Source: a virus. Taken from it: a stretch of DNA of 26,930 bases. Made by a program: the position numbers and the translations under genes. The stretch lies in IMG/VR virus record IMGVR_UViG_3300028129_000052, positions 1 to 26,930 of that record. One strand, written 5' to 3'. The notes below the pieces were generated by a model. That model was not told the origin of the DNA. It was given only the letters and a program-made list of their open reading frames with translations, and did not search any database. Positions 6,224 through 22,812 of the stretch are shown one piece after another. The first letter of the stretch is position 1. Each line of letters starts with the position of its first letter.

Positions 6224-6337
6224 ATGAGTAAGTCAAGTGCAAAAAACAAGTTGGTAGTCCTTAAAGAATGGATGCACATTAACGGAATTAAACAAACTGT
6301 AAAAAAGAAATCAGAATGGATAACAGCAAGCAAATGA
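6224..6337 (+). CDS. Hypothetical 37-residue basic protein
   Basis: An ATG two bases after the previous stop opens 37 codons (MSKSSAKNKLVVLKEWMHIN...), ending in TGA that overlaps the ATG at 6334 (ATGA). It is highly basic with one amphipathic helix. The stop/start coupling and position support it. Function unknown. Confidence 0.55.
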   Translation: MSKSSAKNKLVVLKEWMHINGIKQTVKKKSEWITASK

Positions 6338-6786
6338 TTAGTTATATAGGGGTTAAAGCTATTAAGGCTACCCCTATGACAAGAAAAGAGTATTGTGATT
6401 ACAGAGGGTGGGAAGTTCCTTCTGATGAAGACCCAAATGAAGAGTTGTATTTAGTGGAGTATCCTGTTGATTCAGAGTCAAGACCAAATCATCCTAATCA
6501 TGATGGTTATGTATCAATGAGCCCTAAGCACGTTTTTGATAAGGCTTATATTCAAGTGGAAGGAATATCTCATATAGACCATGACCCAAACCAACCTGAG
6601 CATATGGCAAGAGTAGTTCTCGAAGCAAATGAATTAGGAATTAAAGTTGTAAAGCTGAGAGAGTTCTTTCTAACAGACATCTTTGTTCAGTTAGGTGGTG
6701 CAGAGCAGCAAAGAATGCTTAATCAGGAGAAAGCTATGACAGCTTATTGGATTATACTTAAAGAACGTATAGATGCAATCGGATAA
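6334..6786 (+). CDS. Two-domain phage protein (PMTRxEY domain plus helical crAss001_48-like C-terminus)
   Basis: 150 residues from the ATG at 6334, chosen over the ATG at 6316 because it forms an ATGA overlap with the small gene before it. The N-terminal 70 residues (YIGVKAIKATPMTRKEY, then YRGW, LYLVEYP, YVSMSPKHVFDKAY) match a domain common in tailed phages, as I recall it, of unknown function. After a linker, residues of about 90-150 form helices with the pattern RVxxExxELxxKxxKLxxFF...EQxxMLNQExAMxxYWxILKERI. This resembles a small phage helical domain seen in crAss-like phages (crAss001_48 type). Some similar small helical phage proteins bind nucleotides, but that is not shown here. Confidence 0.68.
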   Translation: MISYIGVKAIKATPMTRKEYCDYRGWEVPSDEDPNEELYLVEYPVDSESRPNHPNHDGYVSMSPKHVFDKAYIQVEGISHIDHDPNQPEHMARVVLEANELGIKVVKLREFFLTDIFVQLGGAEQQRMLNQEKAMTAYWIILKERIDAIG

Positions 6787-6994
6787 AGTTATAATTAAGC
6801 CCTCTAAGGAGCAATTAGGATTTATTAAGGAGTTATCTGCAGTTGTCAATTATGATGGCTGTAGATACGCTCATATACCCTACTTCTTTAAAGCCAACGG
6901 TGATGGCACTATAGAACTACTTAACTTCAATGATATACCTGAGAAGGTACAGAAGCAATTAGAGCACCTCTCACCACTCTTAAAAGTATTGTGA
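6773..6994 (+). CDS. Hypothetical 73-residue protein
   Basis: Starts MQSDKVIIKPSKEQLGFIKE inside the end of the upstream gene and ends at 6994. A helical N-terminal half is followed by NFNDIPEKVQKQLEHLSPLL. It is the last gene before the RNA-rich island and its transcript should stop at the terminator at 7092-7128. No motif recognised. Confidence 0.68.
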   Translation: MQSDKVIIKPSKEQLGFIKELSAVVNYDGCRYAHIPYFFKANGDGTIELLNFNDIPEKVQKQLEHLSPLLKVL

Positions 6995-7050
6995 TTAGTT
7001 GTCTCCACCGTGTGTAGCAAGTAGACTCAATCCCTAATAATCAGGTACTT

Positions 7051-7104
7051 AGAAAAACAACCCCACCCCTCTTCTTGTAGAAAAACAGCACCCCCTCTTC
7101 TGAC
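7051..7104 (+). repeat. Imperfect tandem repeat ahead of terminator
   Basis: Two adjacent units (7051-7078 and 7079-7104) share AGAAAAACA followed by a C-rich run and CCCCTCTTCT. Both contain the same left arm of the terminator stem, so the AGAGGGG arm at 7116-7122 could pair with either copy. Confidence 0.8.
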
Positions 7105-7128
7105 TCGCACTCGGTAGAGGGGTTTTTT
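7092..7128 (+). terminator. Rho-independent terminator of first early operon
   Basis: CCCCTCT (7092-7098) pairs perfectly with AGAGGGG (7116-7122) across a 17-nt loop, followed directly by six T (7123-7128). A second copy of the left arm at 7066-7072 could form a longer alternative hairpin. Confidence 0.88.
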
Positions 7129-7530
7129 GTACTAATTTTATGTATGTCAGCTCCCTGTGAAGACTATATTACGAAACCCCCGATGGGTTACTCTCAAGGG
7201 AAATGGGGGTCTCGAAGTGAGTTCGCTCCTCTCACTCAATATGGAACCACCTTTGGTGATTCATTCTGTGTGTTATAGTTAGTGGTTGTTACTCTCGTGC
7301 TACCTGTGGCTCGTGTTACGCTACCGCTCCACACTTCGCATCCTCTCCGTATTCACTTAGTCTTTAGTGCTACATCATTCACTACTGACTAACCGATTAC
7401 CGTGCTGTGTACTGCGTGCTTGAACTACCGTTCAGCACTCCGTTCCTCTCCGTAATCATCTGATATTATGCGTGTTGTGTGTCTGTGCTACACGTGTGAA
7501 TAGTCTCCGTAACTATTGGGATATTCACCG

Positions 7531-7540
7531 TTCACTATCA
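7531..7540 (+). repeat. TTCACTATCA repeat, copy 1
   Basis: Exact 10-mer inside the structured RNA; its last two bases join the 17-bp helix. Followed by ACACG rather than CG. Confidence 0.8.
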
Positions 7541-7563
7541 ACACGTATGGTATCATCTTTTAT

Positions 7564-7593
7564 AGAGTATTAGCGAGTGTCTAATGCTCTTTT
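7564..7593 (+). terminator. Hairpin with T-tract at 3' end of structured RNA
   Basis: AGAGTATTAG (7564-7573) pairs with CTAATGCTCT (7581-7590), ten pairs with one G-U, over a 7-nt loop, followed by TTTATTA. The T-run is short, so this may be a weak intrinsic terminator or a processing hairpin. Confidence 0.5.
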
Positions 7594-7668
7594 ATTAACT
7601 ACGTGGTATATGTGTATCACTTGCTCTCTAAAAGTCCTTGAGAGTTGACAAATAGGTATTGTATTGTT
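7594..7668 (+). promoter_or_regulatory. Structured leader of 80-residue gene
   Basis: Two short hairpins precede the ATG: GTGGTA/TATCAC (7603-7608/7615-7620) and CTCTC/GAGAG (7624-7628/7640-7644). The last 11 bases including the start codon (GTATTGTTATG, 7661-7671) recur exactly at the start of the gene at 8171, suggesting a shared translation signal. No -7 box was found. Confidence 0.4.
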
Positions 7669-7911
7669 ATGGGTAGATATATTCATAAGATTGATAGGCA
7701 TACTGTTGTTCATACCGCAACTATGCACGTTTCTAACGTTGGTAGCAATAGCACTTACGTTAGTAGGTATGATAAAGGTAGACTTATACATGAAGACATT
7801 ATGTCCTCTAATAGGCTTACTGAATACTTAGCCGACTTTGAACCGTTGGTTGGTATTCAAAACTCTTACATTCCTTCGGTTAAAGACGACGAGTTCGTTG
7901 ACTTGCCTTAG
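7669..7911 (+). CDS. Hypothetical 80-residue protein in RNA island
   Basis: ATG at 7669 opens 80 codons (MGRYIHKIDRHTVVHTATMH...). An in-frame TTG at 7645 would overlap a leader hairpin, so the ATG is preferred. It also shares its start context with the gene at 8171. The N-terminal half is His-rich and the C-terminal half acidic (YIPSVKDDEFVDLP). Codon choice leans to GGT, GTT, TAC and GAC, unlike the A-rich codons of most neighbours and like the gene at 8171. The balanced amino-acid content supports coding. Function unknown. Confidence 0.6.
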   Translation: MGRYIHKIDRHTVVHTATMHVSNVGSNSTYVSRYDKGRLIHEDIMSSNRLTEYLADFEPLVGIQNSYIPSVKDDEFVDLP

Positions 7912-7943
7912 TATGTATTGTCCGAAATGACATTAAACTACCC

Positions 7944-7995
7944 TCGATAAGGATTAGCACCTTATCCTGATGAGTCGCTTCGAAAGGGATGAAAC
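7944..7995 (+). ncRNA. Hammerhead-type self-cleaving ribozyme, degenerate stem III
   Basis: The order fits an open-stem-III (type III) hammerhead. U-C is at 7944-7945, with predicted cleavage after 7945. Stem I is GATAAGG/CCTTATC (7946-7952/7960-7966) with a 7-nt loop. The core CTGATGA is at 7967-7973. Stem II is 7974-7980/7984-7990, six pairs with a G-U closing pair and one G-G mismatch. GAA is at 7991-7993, and A7994 can pair with U7944. Every conserved core base is present. What is missing is stem III: C7995 faces C7943 and the next bases do not pair, so activity is doubtful unless a distant strand supplies stem III. It lies in the intergenic leader of the gene at 8171. Confidence 0.55.
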
Positions 7996-8170: not shown

Positions 8171-8887
8171 ATGAAAACTAATGTTTCAAACGCTACAAGA
8201 TTTAACTCTAACAAATCAACTTCTTATAAAAGAGGTTCTAAGAGTATCATCAAAGAGATATACTCAGGTAGAGTTATCACTAAGTTACCGAAAGGTAGAG
8301 TTCAAGGAGAGTTCGCTTTCCTTAACTTAGCTCCTATTTCCAAAAGAAATGGTGATGCTAACGAGTTCAAGTATATCGCTACTTACTTCCACATCGGAAG
8401 CGAGTTAGACGAAATGTTGGTTCGTGATTACCTTGCAGGTAAAGATTTAGAGGTGATGTCAGGTAAATCTGCAGCAGCTAAGACTAACAACGAGTTAGTT
8501 CAAGCTCACCTTGAGGCTAAAGAAGCTATGTCTTCTAAGCTGTTCTATTCAGTATTTGACTTGAATATGAAGTCTCAATTCCACAAGGATTTCGATGACC
8601 AATTCTGTGTCTTCACTAAATCTTTTAACGGTAAGACTACTTCTCGTAATCTACTTGACATTCTTAGAATGTTTGACCAAATAGGTCATAATATTTCTGA
8701 AGAACAAATTGACTTATTCTACGACAGAGTAGATGCTTTAAGAGAAAAGGTATCTGACTTCCGTTCAGAAGAAGTAGTTACAGATTTCAACCTACTTGAT
8801 TTAGGTAAGCAAATCGTTGAAGTATTCCGTGGTATCAACGTGAATACGTATGCTAATGACGGTAACGTTAAGTTATTCGCTCTATAG
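8171..8887 (+). CDS. Hypothetical protein with distinct codon use
   Basis: 238 residues from the ATG at 8171 (MKTNVSNATRFNSNKSTSYK). A disordered basic N-terminus is followed by an alpha/beta middle (GEFAFLNLAPISKRNGDANE, YIATYFHIGSELDEMLVRDY) and a helical C-terminal half. Codons are rich in TTC, AAC, TAC, GGT and GTT, in contrast to most genes here, which may mean high expression or separate ancestry. It is framed by RNA elements on both sides: the ribozyme leader before it, and the tRNA-like element six bases after it. No family recognised. A role with the structured RNA is only suggested by position. Confidence 0.75.
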   Translation: MKTNVSNATRFNSNKSTSYKRGSKSIIKEIYSGRVITKLPKGRVQGEFAFLNLAPISKRNGDANEFKYIATYFHIGSELDEMLVRDYLAGKDLEVMSGKSAAAKTNNELVQAHLEAKEAMSSKLFYSVFDLNMKSQFHKDFDDQFCVFTKSFNGKTTSRNLLDILRMFDQIGHNISEEQIDLFYDRVDALREKVSDFRSEEVVTDFNLLDLGKQIVEVFRGINVNTYANDGNVKLFAL

Positions 8888-8892
8888 CATAT

Positions 8893-8946
8893 TAGGAAGT
8901 AATGGTTCACTATCACATAGTGGAGGGTTCGATTCCCTCGCTTCCT
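8893..8946 (+). ncRNA. 54-nt tRNA-like element lacking a D stem
   Basis: A 7-bp acceptor-like stem (8893-8899/8939-8945, ending in a T-G pair) encloses a D-region remnant with GG (8903-8904) but no D stem. Next is a hairpin with a 4-bp stem and 7-nt loop (8907-8921), then a perfect T arm: GAGGG, TTCGATT loop, CCCTC (8922-8938). The short hairpin loop ATCACAT has U at position 33, which would make CAC the anticodon. There is no variable loop, and CCA does not directly follow the discriminator C at 8946 (CCA occurs at 8950-8952). The design, with a GG-bearing D loop without a stem, recalls the tRNA-like domain of tmRNA or D-armless mitochondrial tRNAs. Not a normal tRNA. Confidence 0.6.
8905..8914 (+). 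repeat. TTCACTATCA repeat, copy 3
   Basis: Exact 10-mer forming the left half of the anticodon-like hairpin of the tRNA-like element. Confidence 0.8.
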
Positions 8947-8988
8947 CTAACCATCCGAGAAACTGTGTTCGGAGTACGATAAGTATCA

Positions 8989-10751: not shown

Positions 10752-11279
10752 ATGAGTGCATCAAGTAGAAATTATTTCAGACAAATGGAAGAAGAAATAG
10801 AAAATGGAGGTATGTCTTTAGCACAAGAAATGCAAGAGAGTAAAATGCATGCAGAAAGAATGGATGAGTTAAAGGAAAGAACTCAAAAAGAGTTTGAAGA
10901 ATGTGATTTAGTATTCACATACGGTACTCTAATGAGAGGATACGGTAACAACAGGCTATTAGAAGGAGCTTTCTTCAAAGGAGAAGCTGAAACAGTAGAA
11001 AAGTATATGCTAACAGCAAGTGGAATACCATTCGTGCATCCAAAACACAACAAAGTAGAAATCAAAGGAGAAGTATGGGAAGTGAGAACTCTAAGACAGT
11101 TCATACACTTAGACGCTCTTGAATCTCACCCTAATTGGTACAAAAGAGAAATCATAGAAGTTAGAGTCAAGAATAAAATTAAAAAAGCTTGGATTTATTT
11201 CAATGAAGACTCAGTAGGTACAGAAATACCAAGTGGAGATTACAGAGATTACAAACCAACATACACAAACTTTGATTAA
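10752..11279 (+). CDS. Gamma-glutamylcyclotransferase-like (AIG2/GGCT) protein
   Basis: 175 residues. A helical 50-residue extension precedes a GGCT fold. The nucleophile-binding loop YGTLMRGYGNN starts at about residue 57, the central strands include IKGEVWEV, and the likely catalytic Glu is at about 124 in LDALESHPNWYKRE, followed by a final strand KKAWIYF. Family knowledge: these enzymes cyclise gamma-glutamyl amines to release 5-oxoproline. In phage and bacterial neighbourhoods they occur beside amidoligases and class II glutamine amidotransferases, both of which are present downstream (12722 and 14457). The substrate is probably a gamma-glutamyl amide made or removed by that set, an inference. 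The N-terminal helix is unusual for the family. Confidence 0.8.
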   Translation: MSASSRNYFRQMEEEIENGGMSLAQEMQESKMHAERMDELKERTQKEFEECDLVFTYGTLMRGYGNNRLLEGAFFKGEAETVEKYMLTASGIPFVHPKHNKVEIKGEVWEVRTLRQFIHLDALESHPNWYKREIIEVRVKNKIKKAWIYFNEDSVGTEIPSGDYRDYKPTYTNFD

Positions 11280-12721: not shown

Positions 12722-14065
12722 ATGCCAAGAATACAACGAGAATGTTGCACTAACTGTGGTGGTACAGTACAAGTCGAATTAATGATAACAAATGCACACA
12801 ATAGTAACAGGGTATGTCAACCCTGTGCTACTGTGCTGCTATTTGAATCAGCATTTGACCGTGAATGGTATCCTCGAACAATGAGGGTAAGAACAGATGA
12901 AGGATTCATGACAAGAGAGCAGAGAGATAATCTTAGTAGCTACTCATCATGTGTTATATGTGAAACAAGAGTTCATCAAGATAGATTAAGAAACGTAATG
13001 TTAAATGATGAGATACAACAAGCTTGTGGGTATTGCTCAGATAATTTAGCAACCTGTGATTCATGTTCAATTCCTCTTTATGAAGATTCTGAAAACATTG
13101 TTCATATAGGAGCATACACAAACGAAATAAGATGTAGAGAGTGTGCAGAGACAGACGAAGAACTGTATATGTGCGAAGAAGCAGAATGTGCTACGTATGT
13201 CAATCAAGAAATAGGAGAAACAGAAGATGGAGAGTATTTCTGTAGAAACCATGTTCCTCAATTAGAACCAATAAGAATATGGAACTACACATACACTCCT
13301 AATCTTAACTTCACATCAAACGCTGTAGATAACACAAGAGGAAAGTATTTCAACAGAGAGTTACCTTTTTACGGTATAGAAATAGAAGTTGATACTCCTG
13401 ACGGTATGCAACAAACAGCAGACAAATGCAGATTGATGGCTGCAGAAGACATATACTTAAAAAGAGATGCAAGTATAGACGGATTCGAAATTGTTACACA
13501 TCCTTCAACGTTCAGAGCACAAAAAGATTTGCCTTGGACTGATAGATTAAAGGAGCTAAAAAAGCATGGAGCAAGAGGGTATAACTCAGGTAAATGTGGA
13601 ATACATATACACGTTACAAAAGAAGCTTACAGCCCTATAGTGTGGTGGAAAATATTAATGTTTTCGTACAGATGTTCTTCTCAATGGAAAATGTTTGCAA
13701 GAAGAAATGGAAACTACAGATATTGTCCATACAGTTCTCCAACTCAGTACGAAAACTACAGCAGAAAAAAGACAATGTATCCTGAAGTGGAAGATAGGTA
13801 CAAGCATATAAACGTAACAGAACATACTGTAGAGTTTAGAATGTTTCGTTCAACTACTGACCATGATAGATTTTGGGCTACGTTAGAGTTTGTTTACTCT
13901 GCTATAGCATTCTGCGAGCAGCATGGATATTCATTCATGGTAAACAATAGTGCTACGGTAATATGGGATGAGTTTACTAAGTTCATTAAGAACCAAAACG
14001 AATGTCATACACTAAGAAAACACTTAAAGAAAAGAAACCTTTCAAGGGTAGGTATTAATAACTAA
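12722..14065 (+). CDS. Zinc-finger amidoligase (COOH-NH2 ligase, glutamine-synthetase-like)
   Basis: 447 residues in two parts. Residues 1-180 hold a dense series of CxxC pairs (CCTNCGG, CQPC, CVIC, CGYC, CDSC, CREC and CEEAEC, then a CRNH pair), likely treble-clef or RING-like zinc fingers for binding a protein or RNA target. From about 215, FYGIEIEVDTPDG gives the first strand with its metal-binding acids, GFEIVTHPSTF lies near 254, CGIHIHVTKEAY near 291, and TVEFRMFRSTTDHDRF near 370; these match the phage amidoligase family related to glutamine synthetase. Known family role: ATP-dependent joining of an amine to a carboxylate. Neighbours of GGCT and glutamine amidotransferase type support a peptide or amide modification set. 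The substrate is not known. Confidence 0.82.
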   Translation: MPRIQRECCTNCGGTVQVELMITNAHNSNRVCQPCATVLLFESAFDREWYPRTMRVRTDEGFMTREQRDNLSSYSSCVICETRVHQDRLRNVMLNDEIQQACGYCSDNLATCDSCSIPLYEDSENIVHIGAYTNEIRCRECAETDEELYMCEEAECATYVNQEIGETEDGEYFCRNHVPQLEPIRIWNYTYTPNLNFTSNAVDNTRGKYFNRELPFYGIEIEVDTPDGMQQTADKCRLMAAEDIYLKRDASIDGFEIVTHPSTFRAQKDLPWTDRLKELKKHGARGYNSGKCGIHIHVTKEAYSPIVWWKILMFSYRCSSQWKMFARRNGNYRYCPYSSPTQYENYSRKKTMYPEVEDRYKHINVTEHTVEFRMFRSTTDHDRFWATLEFVYSAIAFCEQHGYSFMVNNSATVIWDEFTKFIKNQNECHTLRKHLKKRNLSRVGINN

Positions 14066-14456: not shown

Positions 14457-15323
14457 ATGTGTTTAATTATAATAAAAGAAGTAGGAAAAGAATTAGTATC
14501 AAGAAAAATAATCAGCGAAGTATGGGAAAAGAATCCACACGGAGCAGGATTAATATACAAAAAGAAAGATGCCTCATCATACAAGATGATTAAAGGGCTA
14601 ATGACAGAAGATGATTTAACTTCTACAATAAAATCTTTAGGACTTACCAAAGATGATTGGATAGCATACCACTTACGTTGGGCTACATCAGGAGACATCG
14701 ACCAAAAGACTACGCACCCATTCGTTGTACATAACGACAAGGATATAATCAATACTCTTTCAGTCGAAAGGTCTGATAAGACCGTAATGGTAATGCACAA
14801 TGGAGTCATATACGACCTCAACGATAAGACAGCCAAAGAATCTGATACGCAACGTTTGATTAGCGAATACCTATCGAAGATTGCTTACAAGGAACTACTG
14901 TACAATGACGCAGTTAAATCTCTAATCGAAAAGTTTATCGACGGTAGTCGTTTACTAATCGTTCACGGTAGAGAAGGACACGTAACCTATGGTAAATGGC
15001 ACGAACACGAAGGATACATGATTAGCAAGCCTTACAAAGATGCTACTGTAAAGAAAGTAAGCAACAACTATAAGAGAAATCAAAAGTTCCTTGGGTTTGG
15101 TAATAGTTCACTATCACGCACTACAACTCAGTTCGACTTCCTATTCGACACCGAAGACGAAGACCCTAATCAGTTAGATATATTTCCAACCTCTTCGGTA
15201 GAAGATAGCATGAAGCTTTCTGAAGACTTCTGTAACTATTGCGGTATGTTCCGAGCATTAGTTCATGTTCCTGCCTACAATTCCGAAGTATGCTCACAAT
15301 GTATAAACGATTATCAATTATAA
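14457..15323 (+). CDS. Class II glutamine amidotransferase with C-terminal zinc ribbon
   Basis: 288 residues. Begins Met-Cys, so Cys2 would be the N-terminal nucleophile after Met removal, as in N-terminal nucleophile glutaminases. The family pattern is clear: NPHGAGLIY (26-34), HLRWATSGDID (72-82), THPF (86-89), HNGV (114-117) and SDTQ (129-132) are the expected substrate and oxyanion positions. Known reaction: removes ammonia from glutamine and channels it to a partner synthetase. The amidoligase at 12722 is the obvious candidate. A C-terminal extension carries a CxxC pair near 264 and a second near 280, a likely zinc ribbon. The second half of the gene uses more C-ending codons than the first, and a TTCACTATCACG copy lies inside it. 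Confidence 0.85.
   Translation: MCLIIIKEVGKELVSRKIISEVWEKNPHGAGLIYKKKDASSYKMIKGLMTEDDLTSTIKSLGLTKDDWIAYHLRWATSGDIDQKTTHPFVVHNDKDIINTLSVERSDKTVMVMHNGVIYDLNDKTAKESDTQRLISEYLSKIAYKELLYNDAVKSLIEKFIDGSRLLIVHGREGHVTYGKWHEHEGYMISKPYKDATVKKVSNNYKRNQKFLGFGNSSLSRTTTQFDFLFDTEDEDPNQLDIFPTSSVEDSMKLSEDFCNYCGMFRALVHVPAYNSEVCSQCINDYQL
15107..15118 (+). repeat. TTCACTATCACG repeat, copy 5
   Basis: 12-base form inside the glutamine amidotransferase gene, encoding Ser-Leu-Ser-Arg. Confidence 0.8.
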
Positions 15324-21951: not shown

Positions 21952-22812
21952 ATGATTGAAAAAATAAATAGAAAAAGTTTAATCATTAGACCTTCAGGTA
22001 GAAGTTCAGACTTTATTTCTCCAAGCTTTGGGTACGGTTGTTTATATGACTGTACCTATTGCTACATGAAAAGACATAAACCAACAGGGTTAACAATAGC
22101 AGATAGAGCAAGTGTAACAGATATACTAACAGAGATAAACTCTCATGCAGCTTTTTCTACAATAGAGAAGCCAAATCAAACACATAGTAAATACATTACA
22201 TACGACATCAGCTGTAACGAAGACTTTGCGTTACACCATAAGCAACATGATTGGAAAAGAATATTTGATTTCTTTAAGAACCATGACAAAATAATGGGAA
22301 CGTTAGCAACTAAATATATACCATTAAATTTTTTAGAATACAACCCTGAAGGTAAAATAAGAATAAGGTTTAGTCTAATGCCACAAAGTATATCAGATAA
22401 GTTAGAACCTAACACAACAAAAATCATTGACAGAATTAAAGCTGTTGATGCTTTTATTGAAGCAGGATATGATGTACATTTAAACTTTAGTCCTGTAGTT
22501 TATTATGACGAATGGTTGCAAGACTATGAAGAGTTGTTTGATATGTGCGACCAATACATAGATTATAAAAGTCAAGTATTAGCAGAAGTTATATTCTTGA
22601 CACACAATGAAAACAAACATAAATACAACTTAGAAAATAATAAACCAGGAGAAGAATTAATATGGAAACCACACTTACAAGAGAGTAAAGTATCTGAGTA
22701 TGGGGGAGAAAATATAAGGTATGCTGTTAATTTTAAATCTCAATGGATAAACAAATGGAGAGCATTACATGACAGGATAATACCTTGGAATACAATACGT
22801 TATATATTTTAA
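21952..22812 (+). CDS. Radical SAM protein, spore photoproduct lyase-like
   Basis: 286 residues. The cluster motif CxxxCxxC is at Cys30, Cys34 and Cys37 (FGYGCLYDCTYCYMKRH), the binding site for a 4Fe-4S cluster used with S-adenosylmethionine. The surrounding sequence, including a preceding PSFGYG, then YITYDISCNEDFALH, MGTLATKYIPLNFLEYNPEG and FSLMPQSISDKLEP, resembles the spore photoproduct lyase and Rv2578c-type group. Phage members are known to me only by sequence; they may repair UV thymine adducts in phage DNA or act on another nucleic acid. No additional conserved Cys near the end was found. It is the last gene before the terminator at 22837. Confidence 0.78.
   Translation: MIEKINRKSLIIRPSGRSSDFISPSFGYGCLYDCTYCYMKRHKPTGLTIADRASVTDILTEINSHAAFSTIEKPNQTHSKYITYDISCNEDFALHHKQHDWKRIFDFFKNHDKIMGTLATKYIPLNFLEYNPEGKIRIRFSLMPQSISDKLEPNTTKIIDRIKAVDAFIEAGYDVHLNFSPVVYYDEWLQDYEELFDMCDQYIDYKSQVLAEVIFLTHNENKHKYNLENNKPGEELIWKPHLQESKVSEYGGENIRYAVNFKSQWINKWRALHDRIIPWNTIRYIF

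Follow-up and report, generated by a model that had tools for sequence, protein, structure and literature searches.

The window analysed here, the whole 26,930-base stretch of IMG/VR record IMGVR_UViG_3300028129_000052, is recorded as a linear viral sequence. The terminase large subunit that it encodes matches phrog_6681 and is 22–29% identical to the terminases of Crassvirales and Flavobacterium phages, and ORF 6316–6786 carries a crAss001_48 domain; to judge by these protein matches, the window represents part of a crAss-like phage that is probably environmental. Terminase-side genes run leftward from 4748 and small genes rightward from 4838. At the 3′ side of the small rightward operon, about 4 kb from the large terminase gene, the tightly packed window opens into its longest internal gap without a plausible gene (6995–7668, 674 nt). 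The element under study lies within this gap, and its features and immediate neighbors are as follows.

6773–6994: last ORF of the upstream operon
7092–7131, + strand: upstream terminator-like hairpin, an inverted repeat (7092–7103/7111–7122; CCCCTCTTCTGA/TCGGTAGAGGGG) followed by T6 (TTTTTTG)
7156–7594, + strand: candidate structured noncoding RNA of ~440 nt, from the lack of a convincing frame, the fold z score and a 5′ domain homologous in contig L039
7156–7171, + strand: conserved 5′ sequence TGTGRAGACTATATTA, identical at 15 of 16 positions in L039 and throughout in contig L034
7176–7210, + strand: helices P1 (7176–7182/7204–7210) and P1a (7184–7187/7193–7196), the same minimum-energy fold in the window and in L039
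7304–7355, + strand: first copy of a duplicated module, ending in TCCTCTCCGTATTCA, from local alignment to the second copy
7357–7392, + strand: hairpin between the module copies, mean pair probability 0.97
7405–7458, + strand: second copy of the module, hairpin GUGC(U)UGAAC-UACC-GUUCAGCAC followed by UCCUCUCCGUAAUCA, from local alignment; hairpin z −3.8
7461–7555, + strand: 3′ domain closed by a 17-bp helix, with the third TCTCCGTA (7504–7511) inside; fold z −4.5, 0/200 shuffles
7564–7594, + strand: intrinsic terminator closing the element (10-bp stem, 7-nt loop, then TTTATT), from a terminator scan
7669–7911 and 8171–8887: ORFs downstream of the element, without a recognised family

The two downstream ORFs bear an identical 12-nt leader, TGTATTGTTATG, directly before the ATG; ORF 8171, which begins about 580 nt past the element, follows no comparable element directly. 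Both are the most T-biased ORFs of the window at four-fold codon sites (T fraction 0.79 for 7669–7911 and 0.68 for 8171–8887, against about 0.06–0.59 elsewhere), a bias resembling that of highly expressed genes. A protein search found no relatives of the 8171–8887 product.

Several other features of the window deserve mention. Two 21-nt direct repeats (TAGAAAAACA.C.CCCC...) lie at 7050–7098, just 5′ of the upstream terminator-like hairpin, and are present in L005 too. Genes resembling gamma-glutamyl cyclotransferase (10752–11279), amidoligase (12722–14065) and, weakly, glutamine amidotransferase (14457–15323) lie near one another and possibly form a glutamyl or peptide modification set. At 21952–22812, this crAss-like phage encodes a radical SAM protein that matches spore photoproduct lyase (PF20903).

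Within the element, no ORF of at least 50 aa was found on the + strand. Crassvirales can reassign stop codons, and TAG and TGA were therefore read as sense too; no convincing protein frame emerged from 6995–7668 under the standard code or with TAG/TGA read through, which upholds the lack of a good reading frame reported in the first-pass annotation. The frames opened by read-through cross terminators, vary by code and resemble no protein, and a protein made in this way was rejected. For frame conservation, the comparison with L039 reaches 60 nt.

The hairpin at 7092–7131 looks like the terminator of the previous operon, parting the element from ORF 6773–6994; this reading is our own, the hairpin being absent from the output of a simple terminator scan. 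The closing terminator at 7564–7594 has a pair probability of 0.92 in the single-sequence ensemble. The element is better bounded at about 7156–7594, from the upstream hairpin to its own terminator: the span annotated earlier, 7172–7593, agrees with the terminator at its 3′ end and had been clipped at its 5′ end, where the conserved start lies near 7156. A scan for promoters between 7131 and 7564 returned no match, a result that is uninformative for a Bacteroidota phage.

Fold and duplicated module

The + strand of 7135–7600 folds to −130.7 kcal/mol against −110.0 in dinucleotide shuffles, with none of 100 shuffles as low (z −3.9); the complementary strand has a strong fold as well (z −3.1). 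The fold z score is −5.4 (0/200 shuffles) for the sub-domain 7342–7402, which takes in the hairpin between the module copies, and −3.8 for the hairpin 7415–7460, which has a pair probability of 1.00. The 17-bp closing helix described at first pass is present at 7461–7477/7539–7555, comprising 14 Watson-Crick and 3 G-U pairs that average a probability of 0.99 in the single-sequence ensemble. P1 reaches a mean pair probability of only 0.59 in the full-length ensemble. Of the nine or more helices counted earlier, only those of the 5′ region (7176–7210) have comparative support, the exact number hinging on the single-sequence model; past nucleotide 60, the modelled fold comes from a single sequence.

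The + strand carries TCTCCGTA at 7344–7351, 7447–7454 and 7504–7511. This three-fold repeat, correctly placed in the first-pass annotation, is above chance, the window containing five copies over both strands together where shuffles contain a mean of 0.5 and a maximum of 3. The similar contexts previously marked at 7318–7357 and 7424–7460 are real and longer than had been noted: 7304–7355 and 7405–7458 align with a score of 42 over about 52 nt, the shuffle mean being 22.5 and none of 200 shuffles reaching 42, which backs the suggestion of a duplicated module within the RNA. Read from their sequences, both copies contain a hairpin GUGN...NCAC around a UACC loop. They differ at the fourth pair, U-A against C-G, and at the second pair counted from the loop, G-C against A-U; copy 2 has three further pairs that are unformed in copy 1. 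The copy-1 hairpin folds only in isolation, its probability being near zero in the full-length ensemble. The duplicated unit is a hairpin plus a UCCUCUCCGUA segment; two modules are clear, and a third, carrying UCUCCGUA, is possible.

Relatives and compensatory changes in the 5′ domain

A scan with the window terminase yielded seven contigs. One of these, L039, encodes a terminase 67% identical to that of the window and ends inside the element: the terminal blastn match, at the very end of the contig, covers window 7156–7188, the first 60 nt of its element align with window 7156–7211, and blastn gave no alignment upstream of 7156. Contig L034 stops 24 nt into the element, its last 184 nt being ~97% identical to the window, and the first 10 nt of TGTGRAGACTATATTA are the last 10 nt of contig L038. 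The three contigs come from different metagenomes, and their ends inside the conserved start would be assembly breaks at a sequence common to coexisting genomes.

Folded separately, the window and L039 each form a 7-bp helix around a 4-bp helix at the same offsets, with TGTGGAGACTATATTATGTAATGCCCTATAGGTCTTCCTAAATCGGAAGGGCAT in L039 in place of TGTGAAGACTATATTACGAAACCCCCGATGGGTTACTCTCAAGGGAAATGGGGGT in the window. All 11 pairs of P1 and P1a are standard in both sequences, both sides having changed in four pairs and one side in one. From the window to L039, the four double changes are C-G to U-A, C-G to G-C, G-U to U-A, and G-C to A-U; were the nine substitutions at paired sites placed randomly, all pairs would survive with a P of about 1.5e-4. 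This count rests on a structural alignment that places a one-base length difference in the apical loop, backed by the two independent folds, and an automatic sequence alignment places the difference in the stem instead. Retention of 11 of 11 pairs, four of them with double changes, shows that the 5′ domain is conserved as a structure, most likely as RNA. In L039 the window G-U pairs 7182–7204 and 7186–7194 are exchanged for U-A and G-C, a pattern that speaks for pairing in RNA and not in DNA. Covarying pairs were thus found in the homologue alignment only in P1 and P1a, where they make up 4 of 11 pairs in L039, and the comparative evidence spans about 60 of 440 nt. Together with the fold statistics, the duplication test and the terminator, the four double compensatory changes in the sole homologue recovered back the earlier proposal of a large structured phage RNA.

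One full-length sequence of the element is known, and no full-length homologue was found. Searching IMG/VR and genome contigs for the 5′ signature TGTGRAGACTATATTANG returned only L034, L039 and unrelated sequences, mostly coding-looking, and no real homologues of the signature were present in the species genomes scanned. A covariance model of the 5′ domain, R1, finds the window, L039 and the truncated L034, its other matches among the relatives being at chance level. R1 gave no credible match in nine INPHARED Crassvirales and relatives plus four other viral contigs, nor in 396 Bacteroidota genomes, where the sole weak match (25.1 bits) fell in a genome already matched by TGTGRAGACTATATTANG. 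Blastn of the element against phages gave chance-level matches only. Three spaced copies of TCTCCGTA were sought in IMG/VR as well; the 17 stretches returned were all repetitive (mostly TCCGT-type simple repeats, with one CRISPR-like array) and were rejected. The neighboring proteins 8171–8887 and 12722–14065 retrieved no relatives as queries; with 6316–6786 and TerL as queries, the contigs stop at or before the element, those of L039, L034 and L038 reaching 60, 24 and 10 nt into it. The missing part of the element was absent from the far ends of the relatives' contigs.

Relation to known large RNAs and competing readings

ROOL RNAs are very highly expressed. GOLLD and ROOL are ornate, large RNAs of phages and prophages, of no known function and often located near tRNA islands (PMC12286853). 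The described ROOL has a length of 659 nt, while many GOLLD members exceed 800 nt, share a universally conserved 3′ region and assemble into a homo-oligomeric nanocage (PMC12286853). The first-pass annotation had likened the layout and neighborhood of the element to these RNAs while claiming no sequence identity, a caution that was right: the element matches no Rfam family at the gathering score, and a restricted search of 7140–7600 (461 nt) with E up to 10 gave no GOLLD, ROOL or OLE match, the few weak matches in restricted searches belonging to unrelated families. A relation to GOLLD or ROOL is thus not borne out by covariance search. The likeness in neighborhood holds loosely, in that the element is phage-borne and a tRNA-like element without a D arm lies about 1.3 kb downstream (8893–8947), although ARAGORN calls no tRNA.

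With both families the element shares the character of a large structured phage noncoding RNA. At about 440 nt it is shorter than ROOL, to which no relation in sequence or fold is demonstrable, and than GOLLD, which often exceeds 800 nt; GOLLD is conserved in its 3′ region, whereas conservation of the element lies so far in the 5′ domain, the only part compared. That the element is a divergent member of either family, as its size, structure, phage host and tRNA-like neighbor might suggest, is, with these lengths and search results, extremely improbable. Because the model test failed for both, we file the element under neither; the most fitting name for it is a candidate new class, broadly of the GOLLD and ROOL kind but not a member of those families.

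The element could instead act in cis as a leader or attenuator, in which the RNA structure would sense something and the terminator at 7564–7594 would set read-through into ORF 7669–7911, perhaps also into 8171–8887. Like phage leader and attenuator RNAs, it places a structured RNA and then a terminator upstream of a gene, and both following ORFs have the strong codon bias of a highly expressed style. However, the same 12-nt leader precedes ORF 8171, where no such element stands directly upstream, and with a leader of their own both ORFs seem to be started independently of the element, which weakens this reading. A leader common to two following ORFs, a length of about 440 nt and a duplicated module set the element apart from phage leaders, the latter two being large for an attenuator, and no known riboswitch was matched in Rfam. 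A perfect 10-nt complement does connect the P1a region (7190–7199, ACTCTCAAGG) with 7636–7645, 23 nt before the start codon of ORF 7669, but a single such match is close to what chance would yield in 1.2 kb. On balance, we consider a leader unlikely.

Less probable again is a DNA-level site, be it a genome end, packaging site or origin, with hairpins acting on DNA. Three relatives' contigs end within the conserved start, L038 after 10 nt, L034 after 24 nt and L039 after 60 nt, and the large terminase gene is about 4 kb away, all of which would suit such a site; against it, the window contig continues straight through, the ends fall at differing bases, as expected of assembly breaks at a sequence common to coexisting phages, and the exchange of G-U for U-A and G-C fits RNA, as does the terminator. 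Neutral intergenic or decayed coding sequence with a chance fold, which most of the element being without a homologue for comparison would allow, we hold to be highly improbable given the compensatory changes, the fold and duplication statistics, the terminator, and a gap of this length in so tightly packed a window; for the 5′ domain, it is refuted by the compensatory changes in L039.

The best explanation, which we judge probable, is that the segment is a + strand phage gene whose product is a stand-alone structured noncoding RNA about 440 nt long. Transcription would start somewhere from 7131, where the upstream terminator-like hairpin ends, to 7156, yielding a transcript separate from both neighboring operons, and the RNA would act in trans. 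The repeated hairpin plus UCCUCUCCGUA modules would be two or three copies of a single putative site at which a protein or RNA partner binds, with the 17-bp helix and the conserved 5′ domain keeping them together, and during infection the RNA would serve as a scaffold or decoy. Multivalent binding is suggested by the two clear modules and a possible third, which would give one partner several sites; a multivalent scaffold or decoy is the likeliest mechanism, although we offer it tentatively and as a guess. Counting against exposure of the binding sites, the TCTCCGTA copies are predicted to be only 40–50% unpaired in the single-sequence full-length ensemble. It is possible, if somewhat short of probable, that the element represents a new class among the large noncoding RNAs of phages, so far from one environmental crAss-like lineage, in which a conserved 5′ domain, two or three hairpin/UCCUCUCCGUA modules and a long 3′ hairpin make up a multivalent scaffold or homo-oligomer acting in trans.

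New here are the comparative evidence for the 5′ domain, the better boundaries and the statistically supported duplication. If crAss-like phages do carry a further class unrelated to GOLLD and ROOL, large phage RNAs would have arisen more than once, and the element would offer a smaller, modular example for study, for which full-length homologues would make binding partners directly testable.

Other RNA-like features downstream

Beyond the element, the window contains further RNA-like features. At 7918–7940 lies TTGTCCGAAATGACATTAAACTA, a short non-coding motif common to unrelated phages. Its form TGTCCGAAATGACNNNAAACTA occurs in at least 119 stretches of IMG/VR, where we estimate that about 0.4 would be expected; these represent at least 59 contexts with nothing else in common. 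The motif often lies directly 3′ of a tRNA or tRNA-like end (Synechococcus and Lactobacillus phages) or of a terminator T-run, and frequently just 5′ of scaffold- or head-gene lookalikes; in the loci scanned, Rfam models leave it unmatched, and the sequence was not found in the literature searched. Adjoining it, 7940–7990 resembles a hammerhead ribozyme, ACCCUC^GAUAAGG-AUUAGCA-CCUUAUC-CUGAUGA-GUCGCUUC-GAAAGGGA. This stretch is unscored by Rfam models; it has the core letters, a 7-bp stem I, a 4-bp stem III and only one pair in stem II, and the hammerhead descriptor matches once in the window against 0.02 times per shuffle. The tRNA-like element at 8893–8947, about 55 nt long, combines a 7-bp acceptor, an anticodon-like hairpin and a T arm with a UUCGAUU loop, and gives a weak match to tRNA-Sec (17.8 bits).
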